Assembly (NCBI GenBank): GCA_024742275.1
Contig: JANSYS010000009.1
Coordinates: forward strand, 1 to 64,000
Direction of reading: 5' to 3'
DNA: 64,000 bases
Origin: Alphaproteobacteria bacterium
GTDB taxonomy: Bacteria > Pseudomonadota > Alphaproteobacteria > Thalassobaculales > Thalassobaculaceae
Made by a program: the position numbers and the translations under genes. Shown here one piece after another: positions 54,747-62,576 of this stretch. The first letter of the stretch is position 1. Every line of letters starts with the position of its first letter. Below the pieces are notes generated by a model that was given only the letters and a program-made list of their open reading frames with translations, ran no database searches and had not been told where the DNA came from.

Positions 54747-54821
54747 GCGGGCGTAGCTCAGGGGTAGAGCACAACCTTGCCAAGGTTGGGGTCGTGAGTT
54801 CGAATCTCATCGCCCGCTCCA
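54747..54821 (+). tRNA. tRNA-Gly (anticodon GCC)
   Basis: A 75-base cloverleaf: acceptor GCGGGCG pairs with CGCCCGC, the D-arm is GCTC-AGGGGTA-GAGC, the anticodon arm ACCTT-GCC-AAGGT presents GCC, the T-arm is built on GTTCGAATC, and the encoded CCA ends at 54821. It decodes GGC/GGT. No second tRNA follows and no attachment-site duplication of its 3' end is visible nearby. Confidence 0.96.
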
Positions 54822-54914: not shown

Positions 54915-55748
54915 TCAGCGGCGCAACCGCAGAAGCAGGCCCTGGGCGACGTTTCCGACCGCGTTGGCGGCCGCCGCGCCCATCTGGTCGGATACCTCAT
55001 CCGCCAGATCGATAAGAAGTTCCGCCTGTCGGCGAAGGACGGCTTCCCGACCGTCGGCGATCGCGAGAATCGCTTCCTCAGCAGCGAAATACCGATCGAC
55101 TTCCGGCCGGACCTCGGAGGTTTCCGCGCAGTCCGGCAAGGCGTGCCACGACTCCCGCGCCATATCGAATTCGACGAAAGCCGCTTCAAGCTCGCTGTCG
55201 ACGTCCTCGGGCGCGGGCGCCTGAACGAGCGCGGAGATAGGGACGCTCAGACCGGCTGATCCGGCGATGGAGATCAGGGCATCGGCAATCAGTCTGCGGG
55301 CTTCCGCCACGTCGTCGTCGCGGTGGCCGGGCCGGTTCTGGAACGCGCCCGGTCCCGCCGGTTCGCCCGTCGCCCTGTTGGGCGCGCTGTCGCGATCGCC
55401 CGCACATTCATCCGGCCGGTTGCGGTCCGGCCGCCGATCGCGGTCCGCGTCGTCCGCCGCTACCGAGCGGCGTGGGCCGCTCAACAATTCCAGAGCATGC
55501 GCCAATTGGATGGTCAGGGCCGCGTGTCCTCCAGGAACGGCACCGCCGGCCAGGCTGACCGGAAGCATGGGCACGCCTCCCGGCGCCCGGTAGCCGGCGC
55601 CACCGCGTCTGCCGGTGCCGGGCGACCAGAAGGGCCCGGATTCCGGAGGCCGATTCCACTGCGTCATCGTGTCGGCCAAATTGCGGAGGCCGGCATCCGA
55701 TTGGCGGTCCGGCGGCCCGCCGGCTGAAATATCGTCATTGGGACACAT
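54915..55748 (-). CDS. hypothetical protein, helical C-terminus
   Basis: The 277-aa frame from ATG 55748 has a low-complexity Pro/Gly/Arg/Asp-rich first half (to about residue 140) with no recognisable fold, then an acidic, helical second half (EARRLIADALISIAG, EAAFVEFDMARESWHAL, AELLIDLADEVSDQMG). I recognise no family. The C-terminal half looks protein-like; the N-terminal half could be non-coding, with a later start. No strong ribosome site. It faces left toward tRNA-Gly and is divergent from the HTH regulator. Confidence 0.5.
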   Translation of the reverse strand: MCPNDDISAGGPPDRQSDAGLRNLADTMTQWNRPPESGPFWSPGTGRRGGAGYRAPGGVPMLPVSLAGGAVPGGHAALTIQLAHALELLSGPRRSVAADDADRDRRPDRNRPDECAGDRDSAPNRATGEPAGPGAFQNRPGHRDDDVAEARRLIADALISIAGSAGLSVPISALVQAPAPEDVDSELEAAFVEFDMARESWHALPDCAETSEVRPEVDRYFAAEEAILAIADGREAVLRRQAELLIDLADEVSDQMGAAAANAVGNVAQGLLLRLRR

Positions 55749-55821
55749 GCTTCGGATCCGTCCGCTTGTTCTGTCATGCGTGAGTATACGGACGCAGACT
55801 AGCGACATAATTGCAGACTGA

Positions 55822-55838
55822 CTATCGAAAATTGATAG
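55822..55838. promoter_or_regulatory. palindromic operator upstream of the HTH regulator gene
   Basis: CTATCGA-AAA-TTGATAG is a 17-base dyad with one mismatch, about 90 bases before the regulator's ATG at 55929. The same palindrome, without mismatch, occurs at 57412-57428 in front of the convergent GNAT-like gene. Autoregulation is the simplest reading. Confidence 0.6.
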
Positions 55839-55928
55839 AATTTCGATCTAAATCGAGAGTAAAGCCGATCAAACCGATCGCGCGTCTATCATATTTTATT
55901 TTTCGTCTGGCGGATGTAGTGTCCGGTT

Positions 55929-56594
55929 ATGAAGCAGGAGTTGACCGGGGAGGCCCTGCGCAGCGCGCTCGGCCGGTTGAACTGGACCCGAGAGCGGCTC
56001 GCCAGGGCGGCGGGTCTCGGCGAGGCGACGGTCTATCGCATGCTGGCCCAGAACGGCGCCATCCAGGCACGGCGCAGCTCCATGGAGAAGGTCGCGCAGG
56101 CTCTAGAGGCCGAGGGCGTGCTTGATCCCGCGGGGTTGGTGCATCGCGAGGAGCCCCTGGTTACCGTGAGCCTGCCCGGAGACTTGATCCGGCGGATGCC
56201 CGGTCGGTTCGCCAACCTGTCTCGGCTTTGGGCGCAATCCATGGAAGCCACCGATCTGGACGATCTGCTGGCGCGGTTGGGTGGCGTGACCGAGCGTGTA
56301 TCGAGCGCGTATGTGTGCGAGTCCGGCGGGCTCACCATCGGTATGCTCGGACATGGGCTTCGATGGGCGTCCAACAACATGATCGGACGCCCCTTGATGG
56401 AGCTGGCGGACAAGGACGTGGCCGTCTCCGCCTCAGAACGGTATTGGCGCTCGATCATCTCCCATGAACCGACCCTCGCCTATTGTCGGCGCGGCGACCT
56501 GGACTTCACGGTGCTTACCGTACCAGTGCTGCATCACGACCGGCAGGCTGTCGTGTCCTGGTCGGAACTAGGACGTCCGGACCTTTGGAGATGA
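55929..56594 (+). CDS. HTH transcriptional regulator with a C-terminal PAS-like sensor domain
   Basis: The 221-aa protein has an XRE-type helix-turn-helix at about residues 6-60 (TRERLARAAGLGEATVYRMLAQNG, then a second pair of helices SSMEKVAQALEAEGV). The rest, from about 80, has a PAS-like layout: MPGRFANLSRLWAQSMEATDLDDLLARL, MIGRPLMELADKDVAVSASERYWRSII and LDFTVLTVPVLHHDRQAVVSWSEL. The input is unknown. The 5' flank is AT-rich with a palindrome shared with the neighbouring gene's promoter. Its 3' end overlaps that gene by 80 bases on the opposite strand. It is probably the local regulator of the pair. Confidence 0.8.
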   Translation: MKQELTGEALRSALGRLNWTRERLARAAGLGEATVYRMLAQNGAIQARRSSMEKVAQALEAEGVLDPAGLVHREEPLVTVSLPGDLIRRMPGRFANLSRLWAQSMEATDLDDLLARLGGVTERVSSAYVCESGGLTIGMLGHGLRWASNNMIGRPLMELADKDVAVSASERYWRSIISHEPTLAYCRRGDLDFTVLTVPVLHHDRQAVVSWSELGRPDLWR

Positions 56595-57261
56595 AGTCCA
56601 GGGCATCCTTGATGATCTGCACCGGGGCGGCGTAGCCGAACCAGAGCGGGGTCGGCGGCGTCGTGTAGTGCCAGGTCGCGCCGGGCTCCAGGAATAGGGG
56701 ACGGTACCGCTCGGCGATCCCCTTCTTCATGACGATTTCCGGAACCATGAAGAAGACATGCTTTGCATCCCAGACCTCGACGGCGAAGCTCCGGCCGATC
56801 ACGGGCAGGAACGGCACCAGGAAGTGGGAGAGGTCCGTACCGCGCAGATCCGGGCGGACCCAGATTCCGCCAGAGAACGCGGACGCGCCCTCCATTGCTT
56901 CGAACCATTCCCGGACCGTGCCGTGGATCTCGATGTCCGGCGACGGGCAGGCACGGTGCAGGCCGATCTCGTCCATGTATTCGGCCATCGTGTCGGCCGG
57001 CAGGTAGAGGCCGCAGGCATAGGTGCCGACCACCTTGCCGTCCTTGTGTATCAGCACGCACATGCCCCGGTCGGCGTTCGTCGTCTCGTTCCAGTAACCG
57101 GGAAACACGATACCGCCGTTCCTGTCGACTTTCTCGAACGCGGAAAAGTCTCCGTGAATCGTCAATTCAGCGCCGAACCGGGCGAGGCTGCGTTGTCCTG
57201 CGGCGATGAGGTCGCCCATGATCGTTCCGGCCAGTGCTTGCGGCAGTCTTGTTCGTTGCAT
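56515..57261 (-). CDS. GNAT-like protein of unknown function, probable target of the adjacent regulator
   Basis: The 248-aa protein is a mixed alpha/beta domain. GMCVLIHKDGKVVGTYACGLYLP near 66-88 and SGGIWVRPDLRGTDLSHFLVPFLPVIGRSFAV near 129-160 are laid out like the acetyl-CoA-binding strand and R-G-x-x-L loop of GNAT acyltransferases, though the loop is not canonical. ATG 57261 follows GGAGG at good spacing. Two copies of a TTGAT palindrome lie 120-170 bases upstream. Relation to autoinducer synthases is conceivable from fold alone, but no diagnostic residues are seen. Confidence 0.7.
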   Translation of the reverse strand: MQRTRLPQALAGTIMGDLIAAGQRSLARFGAELTIHGDFSAFEKVDRNGGIVFPGYWNETTNADRGMCVLIHKDGKVVGTYACGLYLPADTMAEYMDEIGLHRACPSPDIEIHGTVREWFEAMEGASAFSGGIWVRPDLRGTDLSHFLVPFLPVIGRSFAVEVWDAKHVFFMVPEIVMKKGIAERYRPLFLEPGATWHYTTPPTPLWFGYAAPVQIIKDALDFISKGPDVLVPTRTRQPAGRDAALVR

Positions 57262-57382
57262 CTCGTCCTCCATTGGTGAACCGACATTCGGGTCCCTGGC
57301 CGTCCAAGAAAAACAGACAACCGTACAGTGAAATGACCCAAAAGCAGCGAGCAGGAAACTTTATCTTAAGTAACGGAAACCA

Positions 57383-57395
57383 ATCAATATTTGAT
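57383..57395. promoter_or_regulatory. palindromic operator, distal-spaced copy (ATCAA-TAT-TTGAT)
   Basis: A perfect 13-base dyad ATCAA-TAT-TTGAT with the same half-site and 3-base spacer as the elements at 55822-55838 and 57412-57428. Its centre is 31 bases from that of 57412-57428, about three helical turns, so two dimers could bind on the same face. Confidence 0.55.
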
Positions 57396-57411
57396 CAGTT
57401 TTCTATCTATT

Positions 57412-57428
57412 CTATCAATTTTTGATAG
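57412..57428. promoter_or_regulatory. palindromic operator (CTATCAA-TTT-TTGATAG)
   Basis: A perfect 17-base dyad about 150 bases upstream of the GNAT-like ATG at 57261 (minus strand). It differs from the element before the HTH gene at one half-site base and in the spacer. Confidence 0.65.
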
Positions 57429-57650
57429 TTTCATGGAATCTCCCCCCTCGTATCGACTTTGCACGGAGGCTTAAGAGGCGGGTCGAGAACCAGATCGCGG
57501 ACGAACGCGTGCCAGACGGCTCTCCCGACGGTCCCACCGATCGGTAAAGTGCGAACTGTTTCCGCAGGTTCCGCGCTTCTGATACGCTCGAACTAGACGC
57601 CCGAGTCGCCGAGAGTGCGGCAGGACGGAAACTGCCAGGGGGGCATGAAC

Positions 57651-60600
57651 ATGCGCAGCCGCACCGAGACCCTGAAGGTCGAGAAGGTCGAAGCCGTCTG
57701 CGCCCTGGTTCTCGAGCGACTGCAGGGAACCAGAGCGGAAACGGCGGGCGCCTTCGTCAAACAGTTCTTCGACAATGTTGCGCCTCAGGATCTTGTGGAC
57801 GAGGAAGTCGAGGATCTTTTCGGGGCGGCCATCTCCATCTGGACTCTCGGGCGCGACCGCAAGGCCGGGCAGCCTCGGATCCGCGCCTACAATCCCCGGT
57901 TCGAGGAAGTCGGTTGGCAGTCGACCCACACGGTCATCGAGATCGTGAACGACGATATGCCGTTCCTCGTCGATTCGGTGACGGCGGCGCTCAACCGGCT
58001 CGACCTGACGGTTCATATCGTCATTCACCCGATCCTCCGGGTGACGCGGGACGCCAAGGGGCAGGTCACTTCGCTGCTGAACGAGGAGGACACGTCCGAC
58101 GGCGCCGTCAGCGAGTCCTACATGCATCTCCAGATCTCCGAGCAGACCTCGGCAGAGGCCTTGGCGAAGATCGAGGAGTCGCTGGCCCAGGTACTGGCAG
58201 ACGTCCGAGCGGCGGTCGAAGACTGGCGGACCATGCGGAAGACCATGGTCGACGTGATCGAGGAACTGGAGAACGCGCCGCCAAAGGGCCAGACGAAGCC
58301 GGATCTGGACGAAGTCTGCGCGTTTCTGCGCTGGATCGAGGACAATCACTTCACCTTCCTCGGCTACCGCCAATACGACTACACCGGCAGCGGCGCGAAG
58401 CTACGCATGGAGGTGGTGAAGGGTAGCGGGCTCGGGATCATCCGCTCTCCAGACGTGAGCGTGTTCGACGGCCTGCGCGACATCGGTACGCTTCCGAAAC
58501 AAGTTCAAGGATTTCTGCTCGATCCGACGCCGTTGCTGGTCATGAAGGCCAACAAGGTGTCCACCGTCCATCGGCCGGTCCCGTTGGACTCGATCAGCGT
58601 CAAGCGCATCGACAAGTTGGGCAAGGTGGTGGGCGAGCACAGATTCATCGGCCTCTTTACTTCCGTGGCCTACAATCAGAGTCCCAAGGAGATACCGCTG
58701 CTCCGCCGCAGGGTGGACAAGATCGTCAGCCGAGCGGGCTTCCGCCCGACGAGCCACGACGGCAAGGCGCTGGTCAACATCCTCGAGACGTATCCACGCG
58801 ACGAACTGTTCCAAGCCAGCGAGGACGAACTCTTCGAAATCTCGATCGGTATCCTCCACCTGCAGGAGCGCCAGAAGACGGCGGTCTTCGTCCGGCGCGA
58901 CGCCTTCGAGCGGTTCGTCTCGATCCTCGTCTACGTCCCGCGCGATCACTACAACACGCAGCTTCGCGAGCGTTTCCAGGCCATTCTCTCCGCCGCCTTC
59001 AACGGCGAGGTGACGTCCTTCTACACGCAGATGTCGGAAAGCATACTGGCCCGGCTGCATTGCATCCTCTCGACGACCCGTGGCGAGATTCCGGATGTCG
59101 ACACCGATGAACTCAATCAGCGCCTGATCGATGCGGGGCGGAGCTGGTCTGACAAGCTCCACGACGCCCTGGTCGAGGACAAGGGAGAGGAGGCGGCGCA
59201 GAAGCTGCTCCGGCGCTACGGTCCGGCGTTCCCGACCAGCTATAGAGAAGCGTACTCCGCCCATGCGGCGATCTTCGATATGGAGCGCATGGAGGAGATC
59301 CACGGCGAGTTCCAACTCGGCATGAATCTGTTCCGTCCGATCGGCGTGGACGATGACGTCCTGCATCTGAAGCTGTTCCATTGCGGCGAGCCGGTACCGC
59401 TCAGCGACGTGATGCCGATGCTGGAGAACATGGGCGTTCGCGTGCTCTCCGAGGTTCCCTTTGAGATCGCCGGCGGCGGGATGCGGCAGCCGATCTGGCT
59501 TCACGATTTTGAGATGCGGCTGCGTGCCGAGACCGAGTGCGACCTTGCGACGATCAAGCTCCCTTTCCAGGAGGCGTTCGGTGCGGTCTGGGACCGGCGG
59601 ATGGAGAACGACGGCTTCAACGGGTTGGTGCTCAATGCCGGCCTGACGTGGCGCGAGGTCACCGTGATCCGCGCCTATGCGAAGTACTTGCGCCAGGCGG
59701 CTTTCACCTTCTCCCAGGACTACATGGAGGAGACCCTGCTCGCCTACGCGCCGATCGCCCGGTTGCTGGTCGAACTGTTCGCCGCCCGCTTCGACCCAGC
59801 CGGAGAGGCCGGCCGCGACAAGGCGGTCGATAGCCTTGAGCAGCGCATCCAGGACGCCCTAGACGGTGTGGCGAACCTTGATCAGGATCGGATTCTGCGC
59901 CGCTTCCTGAACCTGATTCAGTCGACCCTGAGGACCAACTTCTATCAGCCCGACGAGCAGGGGCAGCCCAAGAGCTACGTCTCGTTCAAGCTGGACAGCC
60001 AGTCGATCGAGGAACTGCCGCTACCGCGACCGCTGGTCGAGATCTGGGTGTACAGCCCGCGGGTGGAAGCGGTGCATCTGCGCGGCGGCAAAGTCGCCCG
60101 GGGGGGAATTCGGTGGTCGGATCGGCGCGAGGACTTCCGCACCGAGATCCTCGGTCTCATGAAGGCCCAACAGGTGAAGAATGCCGTGATCGTGCCCGTC
60201 GGCTCCAAAGGCGGGTTCGTGGTCAAGCGTCCGCCGGTCGGCGGCAGCCGCGAGGAAGTCCAGGCGGAGGCTATCGAGTGCTACAAGACACTGATGCGCG
60301 GGATGCTGGACATCACCGACAACATCTCCGGCGCCGACGTCATCGCGCCTGCGGAGGTTGTCCGCTACGACGCTGACGATCCCTATCTCGTGGTCGCGGC
60401 GGACAAAGGGACCGCGACCTTCTCCGACATCGCCAACGGGGTGTCCCAGGACTACGGCTTCTGGCTCGACGACGCTTTCGCCTCGGGCGGGTCGGCCGGG
60501 TACGATCACAAGAAAATGGGCATCACCGCCCGCGGCGCCTGGGAGAGCGTGAAGCGTCATTTCCGAGAGCTCGGACACAATACCCAGAGCGAGGATTTCA

Positions 60601-62576
60601 CGGTCGCCGGCTGCGGTGACATGTCCGGCGACGTCTTCGGCAACGGCATGCTCCTGTCCGAGCACATCCGTCTGATCGGCGCGTTCAACCACCTGCACAT
60701 TTTCATCGACCCGGATCCCGACCCCGCAAAGGGCTTCAAGGAGCGCAAGCGCCTGTTCGACATGCCGCGGTCGAGTTGGAGCGACTACGACACCAAGCTG
60801 ATCTCCAAGGGAGGCGGCGTGTTCGAGCGCACCGCCAAATCGATCAAGCTGACCGCCGAGATCAAGAAGACCTTCGGCATCGCCGAGGACACGGTGACGC
60901 CGAACGAGCTGATCCGCGCCATTCTGATGGCCGAGGTCGACCTACTCTGGTTCGGCGGCATCGGGACCTATGTGAAGTCCGAACGCGAGAGCAATCCGGA
61001 CGCCGGCGATCGCGCGAACGATCCGGTCCGGATCGACGGTCGGGAGATCCGAGCCAAGGTCGTCGGCGAAGGGGCGAATCTCGGTGTTACCCAGCGCGGC
61101 CGGATCGAGGCGGCGCTGAACGGGGTGAAGCTGAATACCGACGCCATCGACAATTCCGCCGGCGTCGACTGCTCTGACCACGAAGTCAACATCAAGGTTC
61201 TGCTCGGCGCGATCCTGGCCGACGGCGACATGACCCTGAAACAGCGCGACAAGCTGCTGGAGGCGATGACCGACGAGGTCGCGGAACTGGTCCTGGCCGA
61301 CAATTACGACCAGACCCTCGCTCTCTCGCTTGCCGCGCATCGGGGCCTCGACCTGATCGACGCCCAAAGCCGGCTGATGCGCCAGCTCGAACGCGGGCAT
61401 CTCAAGCTGAACCGGCGCATCGAATTCCTGCCGGACGACGAGGCGATCGCCGATCGGGTTTCAGACGGCAACGGCCTGACCCGCCCAGAACTCGCCGTCC
61501 TCCTGGCCTACGCCAAGATGTCCCTGTACGACGACCTGCTGGAGAGCGACCTGCCGGATGATCCGGCCCTGTCCGACGATCTGGAGCTGTATTTCCCGGA
61601 ACGGCTCCGCGCCAAGCACGGCAAGTCGATCATGGAGCATCGCCTGCGCCGCGAGATCATCGCCACCACCGTCACCAACTCGATGATCAACCGGGTCGGG
61701 GCGACCTTCCTCAACACGCTGGCCGAGCAGACCGGCGCGAAACCGGCGGAGATCGCTCGGGCCTACACCATCGTCCGCGACGTCTTCGGACTGCGCGGGC
61801 TGTGGGACGCCATCGAGGCCTTGGACAACGCGGTGCCGGCTGCCCTGCAGACCCGGATGCTGCTCGATATCCAGAGGCTGGTCGAGCGCGAAACCCTCTG
61901 GTTCCTGCGCAACGGCCGCCGACCCCTGGATATCGCGAGTCATGTCAATGAGTTCGAGCCTGGAATCAGCGCCCTCAAGGGCTGCCTCGCCGAGGTGATC
62001 GGCGATGCCGAACGCACCGATATGGACAGGGTGTGCGCGGAGCTGCGGGAGCAAGGAGTTCCGAAGGATCTCGCGCTTGAAATCGCCTCTCTCGAGGTGC
62101 TCACCGCCGCCTGCGACATCGTCCGCCTCGCCGCCGGATCCAACGCTCAGGTCCGAACGGTCGCGGTCGTCTATTTCAAGGTCGGCGGACGGTTCTCCAT
62201 GGATTGGCTGCGGGACGGCGCGCTGGCGCTGACCACGGACACCTACTGGCAAAAGCTCGCGGTCAACGCCCTGGTGGATGATTTCTATCAGCATCAGAGC
62301 CAGCTCACCCAAAACGTCCTCGGCCAGATCGACGCGACCGGCGGTCCGTCGAAGGCGAAGAAGCCGGCGTCGAAGAAGGCCGCTGACCGGAAGAGCCGGT
62401 CGGTAAACGGCGATGCGGCGGCGGCTGATGCGGCGATCCGGACATGGACCTCGGATCGGACCGACGACGTGGAACGCACGGACCGGTTGATCGACGATAT
62501 CCGCTCGGCCGATCATTTGGATCTCGCCATGCTGGCCGTCGCCAACGGCCAGATGCGAGCGCTCCTTTCCAGATGA
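57651..62576 (+). CDS. NAD-specific glutamate dehydrogenase, large (about 180 kDa) type
   Basis: The 1641-aa product deaminates glutamate to 2-oxoglutarate and ammonium with NAD. The N-terminal half holds the regulatory and ACT-like regions (for example QSTHTVIEIVNDDMPFLVDSVTAALNRL near 88-115 and YVPRDHYNTQLRERFQ near 425-440). The catalytic core begins at ARGGIRWSDRREDFRTEILGLMKAQ near 813-837 with VPVGSKGGFV. VAADKGTATFSDIAN near 914 and GYDHKKMGITARGAWESVKRH near 945 precede the NAD domain. The C-terminal tail is Lys-rich near 1565-1580. ATG 57651 was chosen because AGGGGG lies 8 bases before it; ATG 57645 is too close and GTG 57615 lacks a site. The full length is intact. Confidence 0.96.
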   Translation: MRSRTETLKVEKVEAVCALVLERLQGTRAETAGAFVKQFFDNVAPQDLVDEEVEDLFGAAISIWTLGRDRKAGQPRIRAYNPRFEEVGWQSTHTVIEIVNDDMPFLVDSVTAALNRLDLTVHIVIHPILRVTRDAKGQVTSLLNEEDTSDGAVSESYMHLQISEQTSAEALAKIEESLAQVLADVRAAVEDWRTMRKTMVDVIEELENAPPKGQTKPDLDEVCAFLRWIEDNHFTFLGYRQYDYTGSGAKLRMEVVKGSGLGIIRSPDVSVFDGLRDIGTLPKQVQGFLLDPTPLLVMKANKVSTVHRPVPLDSISVKRIDKLGKVVGEHRFIGLFTSVAYNQSPKEIPLLRRRVDKIVSRAGFRPTSHDGKALVNILETYPRDELFQASEDELFEISIGILHLQERQKTAVFVRRDAFERFVSILVYVPRDHYNTQLRERFQAILSAAFNGEVTSFYTQMSESILARLHCILSTTRGEIPDVDTDELNQRLIDAGRSWSDKLHDALVEDKGEEAAQKLLRRYGPAFPTSYREAYSAHAAIFDMERMEEIHGEFQLGMNLFRPIGVDDDVLHLKLFHCGEPVPLSDVMPMLENMGVRVLSEVPFEIAGGGMRQPIWLHDFEMRLRAETECDLATIKLPFQEAFGAVWDRRMENDGFNGLVLNAGLTWREVTVIRAYAKYLRQAAFTFSQDYMEETLLAYAPIARLLVELFAARFDPAGEAGRDKAVDSLEQRIQDALDGVANLDQDRILRRFLNLIQSTLRTNFYQPDEQGQPKSYVSFKLDSQSIEELPLPRPLVEIWVYSPRVEAVHLRGGKVARGGIRWSDRREDFRTEILGLMKAQQVKNAVIVPVGSKGGFVVKRPPVGGSREEVQAEAIECYKTLMRGMLDITDNISGADVIAPAEVVRYDADDPYLVVAADKGTATFSDIANGVSQDYGFWLDDAFASGGSAGYDHKKMGITARGAWESVKRHFRELGHNTQSEDFTVAGCGDMSGDVFGNGMLLSEHIRLIGAFNHLHIFIDPDPDPAKGFKERKRLFDMPRSSWSDYDTKLISKGGGVFERTAKSIKLTAEIKKTFGIAEDTVTPNELIRAILMAEVDLLWFGGIGTYVKSERESNPDAGDRANDPVRIDGREIRAKVVGEGANLGVTQRGRIEAALNGVKLNTDAIDNSAGVDCSDHEVNIKVLLGAILADGDMTLKQRDKLLEAMTDEVAELVLADNYDQTLALSLAAHRGLDLIDAQSRLMRQLERGHLKLNRRIEFLPDDEAIADRVSDGNGLTRPELAVLLAYAKMSLYDDLLESDLPDDPALSDDLELYFPERLRAKHGKSIMEHRLRREIIATTVTNSMINRVGATFLNTLAEQTGAKPAEIARAYTIVRDVFGLRGLWDAIEALDNAVPAALQTRMLLDIQRLVERETLWFLRNGRRPLDIASHVNEFEPGISALKGCLAEVIGDAERTDMDRVCAELREQGVPKDLALEIASLEVLTAACDIVRLAAGSNAQVRTVAVVYFKVGGRFSMDWLRDGALALTTDTYWQKLAVNALVDDFYQHQSQLTQNVLGQIDATGGPSKAKKPASKKAADRKSRSVNGDAAAADAAIRTWTSDRTDDVERTDRLIDDIRSADHLDLAMLAVANGQMRALLSR

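Follow-up and report, generated by a model that had tools for sequence, protein, structure and literature searches.

In the 4.69-Mb genome of a marine alphaproteobacterium, a gene encoding a predicted XRE-type HTH regulator with a C-terminal PAS domain lies tail to tail with a gene encoding a GNAT-like enzyme, and candidate palindromic operators of one kind precede both genes. The best explanation, and a probable one, is that the regulator acts as a one-component system on both its own gene and the GNAT gene, with feedback through a PAS ligand. In addition, tail-to-tail GNAT-PAS pairs form a wider set in Alphaproteobacteria, to which the present pair belongs as a version whose PAS protein has an HTH and candidate operators of its own. 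The whole stretch of DNA that was analysed, 64,000 nucleotides in length, is referred to here as the window, and genome-wide counts come from pattern searches.

Gene Arrangement and Candidate Operators

The HTH-PAS regulator gene (55929-56594, forward strand, 221 aa) and the GNAT-like gene (56515-57273, reverse strand, 252 aa), both taken from the ORF list, are convergent. According to their coordinates, the 3' ends overlap antiparallel by 80 nt (56515-56594), which was not recorded in the initial annotation. The two genes also overlap in the orthologs from the genus, and by 83 nt at a locus from another genus (L055). Next to the GNAT gene and divergent from it lies the gene for the large NAD-glutamate dehydrogenase (GDH; 57648-62576, forward strand). 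On the other side, an ORF without a Pfam family (54915-55808, reverse strand) is divergent from the HTH gene, with an upstream region common to both. A search for RNA elements at the locus returned a tRNA (54747-54818) alone. Three further genomes assigned to the same genus share this gene order; one is that of Thalassobaculum litoreum DSM 18839 and another is a Thalassobaculaceae MAG. Two single-contig genomes of 1.5 Mb listed under this genus (G023 and G024) have neither gene and far more numerous dyad matches, and their genus placement looks odd.

Three dyads reported in the initial annotation were confirmed by pattern match. The dyad before the HTH gene, CTATCGA-AAA-TTGATAG (55822-55838), has one arm mismatch and lies between this gene and the divergent ORF, which it could also serve since the upstream region is common to both. 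Before the GNAT gene, a perfect dyad with 7-bp arms, CTATCAA-TTT-TTGATAG (57412-57428), is followed towards the gene by ATCAA-TAT-TTGAT (57383-57395), and both are identical in four species. Their centres, at 57420 and 57389, are 31 bp apart, in agreement with the spacing given earlier. Within the window, WTCRA-N3-TTGAT has five strand matches, all confined to the three dyad places, and dinucleotide shuffles gave a mean of 0.21 and never reached five. The dyad of a single promoter is weak, as shuffling of the GNAT upstream region reached its dyad score in 5 of 60 cases; the strength of the dyad evidence comes from recurrence and conservation, not from single promoters.

The initial annotation had described the motif as confined to these two promoters. 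This holds within the 64-kb window. The whole-genome scan that it proposed found nine further places with degenerate WTCRA-N3-TTGAT matches, namely two each on contigs C8, C17 and C31 and one each on C46, C48 and C70. A site on C28 lies inside a long open frame. The fuller motif TATCR-N5-YGATA occurs at five places in total, two at the present locus and one each on C8, C31 and C59, and the full motif is almost absent from the genome outside the locus. Contig C8 (G000:C8, 76.6 kb) carries genes read by eye as cytochrome f, DnaK and others of plastid type, which indicates an algal plastid contaminant in the assembly and suggests an alga-associated source. The matches on C8 were rejected as extra regulon sites because they lie in plastid DNA. 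Loci on this contig are L004, L005, L059, L060 and L142. Also rejected as an extra regulon site was a TATCGATAATCGATA dyad found at G025:C17:178505 and G027:C1:296416 (L140, L141). Conserved in two species, this dyad separates a HAD-like gene from the gene of a regulator assigned by eye to the GntR type. It is probably the operator of that regulator, since it is not among the sites of the window genome.

Conservation of the Operators and the Candidate Promoter

Orthologous loci had been suggested earlier as a check on the dyads, and the dyads are present at these loci in the four species compared. The four-species alignment delimits a conserved block of 49 bp (57380-57428) that contains both GNAT-side dyads and an extra CTATC half-site, and 46 of its 49 columns are invariant, against 35% for the aligned intergenic stretch as a whole. 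All four species retain the HTH-side dyad as CTATCGRAAATYGAT, with CTATCGAAAATTGAT, CTATCGGAAATTGAT or CTATCGAAAATCGAT as the site variants in the genus, and a T-to-C change at this site results in a more symmetric dyad.

The alignment also points to a candidate GNAT promoter on the reverse strand (57360-57387), consisting of TTGATT (57387-57382), a 16-nt spacer and GATAAA (57365-57360). The candidate -35 TTGATT overlaps the second GNAT-side dyad, which is centred near -36 from the inferred start, and the spacing between this dyad and the candidate -10 GATAAA is fixed in the four species. The distance from the operators to GDH varies by tens of bases, with an insertion of about 40 bases in the window. 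As the spacing is fixed to the GNAT candidate -10 and variable to GDH, the GNAT gene is likely to be the target of the operators. A consensus sigma-70 promoter scan reported nothing at the locus, the candidate GNAT promoter included, and the promoter assigned from the alignment is therefore putative.

The HTH-PAS Regulator

Orthologs of the regulator in three genus members are 76-77% identical. In the AlphaFold model (pLDDT 86.5), an XRE-type HTH occupies the N-terminus and a PAS fold the C-terminus, supporting the earlier proposal of a PAS-like sensor, here predicted to be joined to an XRE HTH. The HTH fold matches C.Kpn2I (4yba, Z 9.6) and HipB (4pu7, Z 8.9), and the PAS region, approximately residues 120-216, matches 3fc7_B (Z 9.7, rmsd 2.7 over 93 residues); the best Foldseek E for the PAS was only 0.001. 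At the sequence level, the protein matches the XRE model PF13443 marginally (22.1 bits, with a cut-off of 22), and weak HipB-like antitoxin matches were also obtained. Apart from the marginal XRE match, neither the regulator nor the enzyme belongs to a named family, and neither has an NCBIfam family. The symmetry of the dyads fits binding of the palindrome by a dimer of the regulator.

The predicted recognition helix covers approximately residues 32-39 (EATVYRML). In genus g8, an ortholog of the regulator (44-45% identity) directly precedes the GDH gene, in the same direction and without a GNAT gene. Upstream of this ortholog lies CTATCATTTTCTGATAA (G014) or CTATCATTTTTTGACAA (G015), both of the form CTATCA-N5-TGAYA, and exact matches to this form number two in the whole genome of G014 and one in that of G015, the regulator site being counted in each. 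The recognition helix ATVYRMLAQ is identical in g1 and g8. It differs (TINRVFNS and others) in g11, g7 and the G025:C11 paralog, and the motif was not found at these loci. This joint change of operator and recognition helix is the best evidence here that the regulator reads the site, as far as can be judged from sequence comparison. As the g8 regulator has an operator without an adjacent GNAT gene, GNAT may not be the sole target. No such operator was found between the HTH and GDH genes of g8. This interval contains a conserved TTGAAA-N8-TTTCAA dyad (L056 4470-4690; L057 6250-6480), which is unlike the operator. The operators in four species, the near uniqueness of the motif in the genome and the g8 site provide good comparative support for the earlier suggestion that the regulator would control both itself and its neighbour.

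The GNAT-like Enzyme

Orthologs of the enzyme in three genus members are 86% identical to it. The model of the enzyme (pLDDT 90.3) has a GNAT fold and supports its initial description as acyltransferase-like. Comparison with GNAT structures gave Z scores of 10-11.5, with 4xpd_B as the top match (Z 11.5, rmsd 3.0 over 152 residues) and N-terminal acetyltransferases, SpeG, FeeM and others as tied matches. The AHL synthases EsaI and MesI are also among the structural matches, as is KacT. A Pfam or NCBIfam family of its own was not found for the enzyme. The window protein does not match a GNAT sequence model either, and 7 of 52 relatives match Acetyltransf_1, the best with an E of 0.0005. In place of the canonical pyrophosphate loop R/Q-x-x-G-x-G/A, the window protein has the degenerate R144-G-T-D-L-S, in which R144 is kept in 50 of the 52 relatives and the loop glycines are not. 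Since this loop varies within the GNAT fold, its degeneration lowers the confidence in the acyl donor and not in the fold.

Membership of the LuxI/AHL synthase family and of the FeeM family was rejected, as profile comparisons with hhalign were negative: the probability was 5% against 29 AHL synthases (0.1% for the close subfamily) and 2% against 28 FeeM sequences (PF21926), for which one of the 52 relatives reached an E of 0.058. The positive control, AHL synthases against FeeM, gave 95%. In addition, PF00765 has no match in the window protein and none in the genome. The place judged by eye to be equivalent to the E-x-x-R motif (WEGSRF) reads SGGIWV, in a region where the profiles are unaligned.

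GNAT-PAS Pairs in Alphaproteobacteria

GNAT relatives were gathered by sequence alone, after which all ORFs in their loci were scanned with the regulator profile. HTH-PAS partners were found beside distant GNAT paralogs, including one on contig C61 of the window genome and one in another family, and most of the remaining GNATs have a convergent neighbour that ends in the same PAS pattern. A PAS-profile match adjoins the GNAT gene in 49 of 57 GNAT loci and in none of 88 control loci; these 57 loci come from many alphaproteobacterial families but include near relatives, a few representing the same place, and are not all independent. Part of the training set of the PAS profile came from neighbours of GNAT genes; held-out halves of this set gave 50 of 57 loci and no controls. 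The paired loci are convergent in 46 of the 49 cases, and about 30 of these overlap. The window pair, a GNAT of the family beside a PAS-domain ORF and tail to tail with it, falls within this definition. Genome-wide searches in the genus placed a PAS match no more than about 2 kb from 20 of the 21 GNAT paralogs, although each genome has only 9-17 such matches, and four genus members have 3 to 7 GNAT paralogs each. In the class, a narrow profile detected GNAT relatives in 24 of 385 sampled genomes.

GNAT and HTH-PAS genes occur together in g1, g7 and g11, at a second locus in both G025 and the window genome, and in another family. In g11 and at G025:C11, the GNAT gene is divergent, and a small ORF named by eye as a DMT/EamA-type membrane protein overlaps or abuts the HTH gene. 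At L052, L053 and L054, a second type of locus, a DMT/EamA-type ORF accompanies the HTH-PAS gene, divergent from GNAT; L052 and L053 carry in addition a neighbouring PAS-like ORF whose N-terminus is long. The simplest PAS partners consist of the domain alone (about 170-190 aa, in some cases matching MopJ), and at the other extreme the PAS follows a long unassigned N-terminus. A recognisable HTH is present in only a minority of partners, so DNA binding is a derived or optional feature; likewise, transcriptional control cannot be the common denominator, since most PAS partners are without a recognisable DNA-binding domain. Among the GNAT relatives, those at L028 (604-2199) and L023 (1438-2994) have N-terminal extensions of about 200-300 residues, in ORFs of more than 500 aa.

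The other XRE-PAS/GNAT loci were also searched for dyads, and g7 alone gave a clearly significant one, TTCCTTCGA-CT-TCGAAGGAA, with 0 of 60 shuffles. GTCGCT-N11-AGCGAC, common to the C61 and C63 paralogs, and CACTC-N7-GAGTG, from one g11 locus, are singly within chance by shuffles. A dyad common to all XRE-PAS/GNAT promoters was rejected on these results, and the window motif is absent from the other loci. The GNAT-PAS pair is undescribed in the literature searched (PAS/GNAT, XRE/PAS and MopJ/acetyltransferase), a body that leaves most subscription journals and preprints outside it.

Comparison with Known Systems

For LuxR/LuxI genes that are convergent and overlapping (R2), DNA binding by the ligand-free regulator, with the ligand acting as an antagonist, has been reported (PMC3658600). 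As in the window, the genes of a sensor-regulator and of a GNAT-fold enzyme converge and overlap at their 3' ends, and dyad operators precede the enzyme gene. In contrast, the window regulator is of the XRE-PAS type and the window enzyme is not detectably a LuxI relative, and by analogy only might the window arrangement work like the overlapping LuxR/LuxI genes. VqmA of Vibrio cholerae, the PAS-HTH receptor of the autoinducer DPO (6ide, 6kju, 6ugl), is likewise a one-component regulator with a ligand-sensing PAS. The PAS of the window regulator matches that of VqmA with a Z of 8.7, whereas the domain order and HTH type differ and VqmA has no linked GNAT. The HTH of VqmA is LuxR-type and C-terminal.

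Some of the GNAT partner ORFs resemble the MopJ-type PAS_5 single-domain proteins (PMC4432633; NF051868). Of 51 scanned members of the partner set, three match MopJ, and three match PAS_5 (L084 confirmed), indicating that at least part of the partner PAS family is of the MopJ/PAS_5 type. The window regulator, unlike these, matches neither model, and a link between MopJ and GNAT was not found in the papers searched. On the enzyme side, FeeM and NatA/NatE/NatF share the GNAT fold with the window enzyme, all tied at Z 10-11.5, but FeeM has no profile-level relation to it (2%).

Proposed Circuit and Alternative Explanations

Four elements of the proposed circuit are predictions, namely binding of the dyads by the regulator, the direction of control, the PAS ligand and the enzymatic reaction. 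In this circuit, the regulator, a dimer of the XRE type whose C-terminus carries a PAS sensor, would bind sites of the form CTATCA-N5-TGATAG. From one site upstream of the regulator gene and two phased sites upstream of the GNAT gene, it would regulate both itself and the acyltransferase. A small PAS ligand would relieve (or alter) repression, and the substrate or product of the acyltransferase would be the most likely ligand, resulting in a small feedback circuit. The position of the second GNAT-side site near -36 favours repression over activation, and repression is the more likely sign because this site overlaps the likely -35. The operators themselves are of an ordinary kind, a one-component regulator with palindromic sites, and it is the class-wide pairing that raises the interest.

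The operator logic would be the same in substrate-inducible detoxification or metabolite modification, in which the PAS senses an external compound that the GNAT acetylates, without a feedback role or intercellular signalling. Many GNAT structures that acetylate small molecules or peptides match the enzyme equally well, and at three loci the DMT/EamA-like ORF (by eye) abuts or overlaps the HTH gene, divergent from GNAT. A PAS partner kept tail to tail throughout the class, together with as many as seven diverged paralogs in one genome, exceeds what a simple resistance gene would need. This opposes the explanation weakly, and detoxification or modification is a genuine, if less likely, alternative to the feedback reading. 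The double operator lies between GNAT and GDH, and the HTH gene of g8 directly precedes GDH, in the same direction and without GNAT, as would be expected if GDH were the main target, GNAT a later insertion, and the double operator a control of GDH or of both. However, the operator spacing is variable to GDH and fixed to the GNAT candidate promoter, GNAT-PAS pairs exist without GDH in g7, g11, G025:C11 and the C61 paralog, and the g8 operator precedes the HTH gene with none found between HTH and GDH, so that GDH is improbable as the main target. Another quite improbable reading is that the PAS partner, or a protein which it binds, is what the GNAT modifies, the pair then being an enzyme with its protein substrate or adaptor and the HTH version a special case. 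PAS partners often lack a recognised DNA-binding domain and N-terminal acetyltransferases rank among the top structural matches, but the ranks among GNATs are tied and indicate no substrate, and the operators are left unexplained by this reading alone.

A true LuxI/LuxR-type acyl-homoserine-lactone system in disguise would account for the GNAT fold, for EsaI, MesI and FeeM among the matches, and for convergent overlapping R/I genes, a known quorum-sensing topology (PMC3658600). The profile comparison with 29 AHL synthases (5%, with a control at 95%), the absence of PF00765 from both protein and genome, and a regulator that is XRE-PAS and not LuxR make it very improbable. A pair of a GNAT toxin and an XRE antitoxin is scarcely credible either, despite the structural matches to KacT and HipB and the weak HipB-like antitoxin matches. 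The genes are convergent with separate promoters and not an antitoxin-first operon, and PAS partners without an HTH are common. Moreover, known GNAT toxins are, to our knowledge, paired with ribbon-helix-helix proteins. A defence-library scan found no system, and toxin-antitoxin function and phage defence were both rejected on this empty scan and on the gene arrangement. Plasmid spread was also rejected, with no plasmid match or copies.

Autoregulated control of the GNAT gene with PAS-ligand feedback is thus retained as the best explanation. The initial annotation had further suggested a signal-synthesis/response or modification module. The class-wide GNAT-PAS pairing argues for this suggestion, while the family membership does not, the enzyme being not detectably LuxI or FeeM. 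In the boldest form, the GNAT would make a dedicated acylated signal with its PAS partner as the receptor, a new class of small-molecule signalling systems with several parallel pairs per genome, of which the HTH-PAS version would be directly transcriptional; such a class is an unlikely, tentative prospect.

If the proposed circuit is correct, a family of sensor-enzyme pairs that appears to be undescribed would become accessible to genetic readout through this locus, a DNA-binding version whose operator sequence could serve as a reporter in the search for the PAS ligand and the GNAT product.
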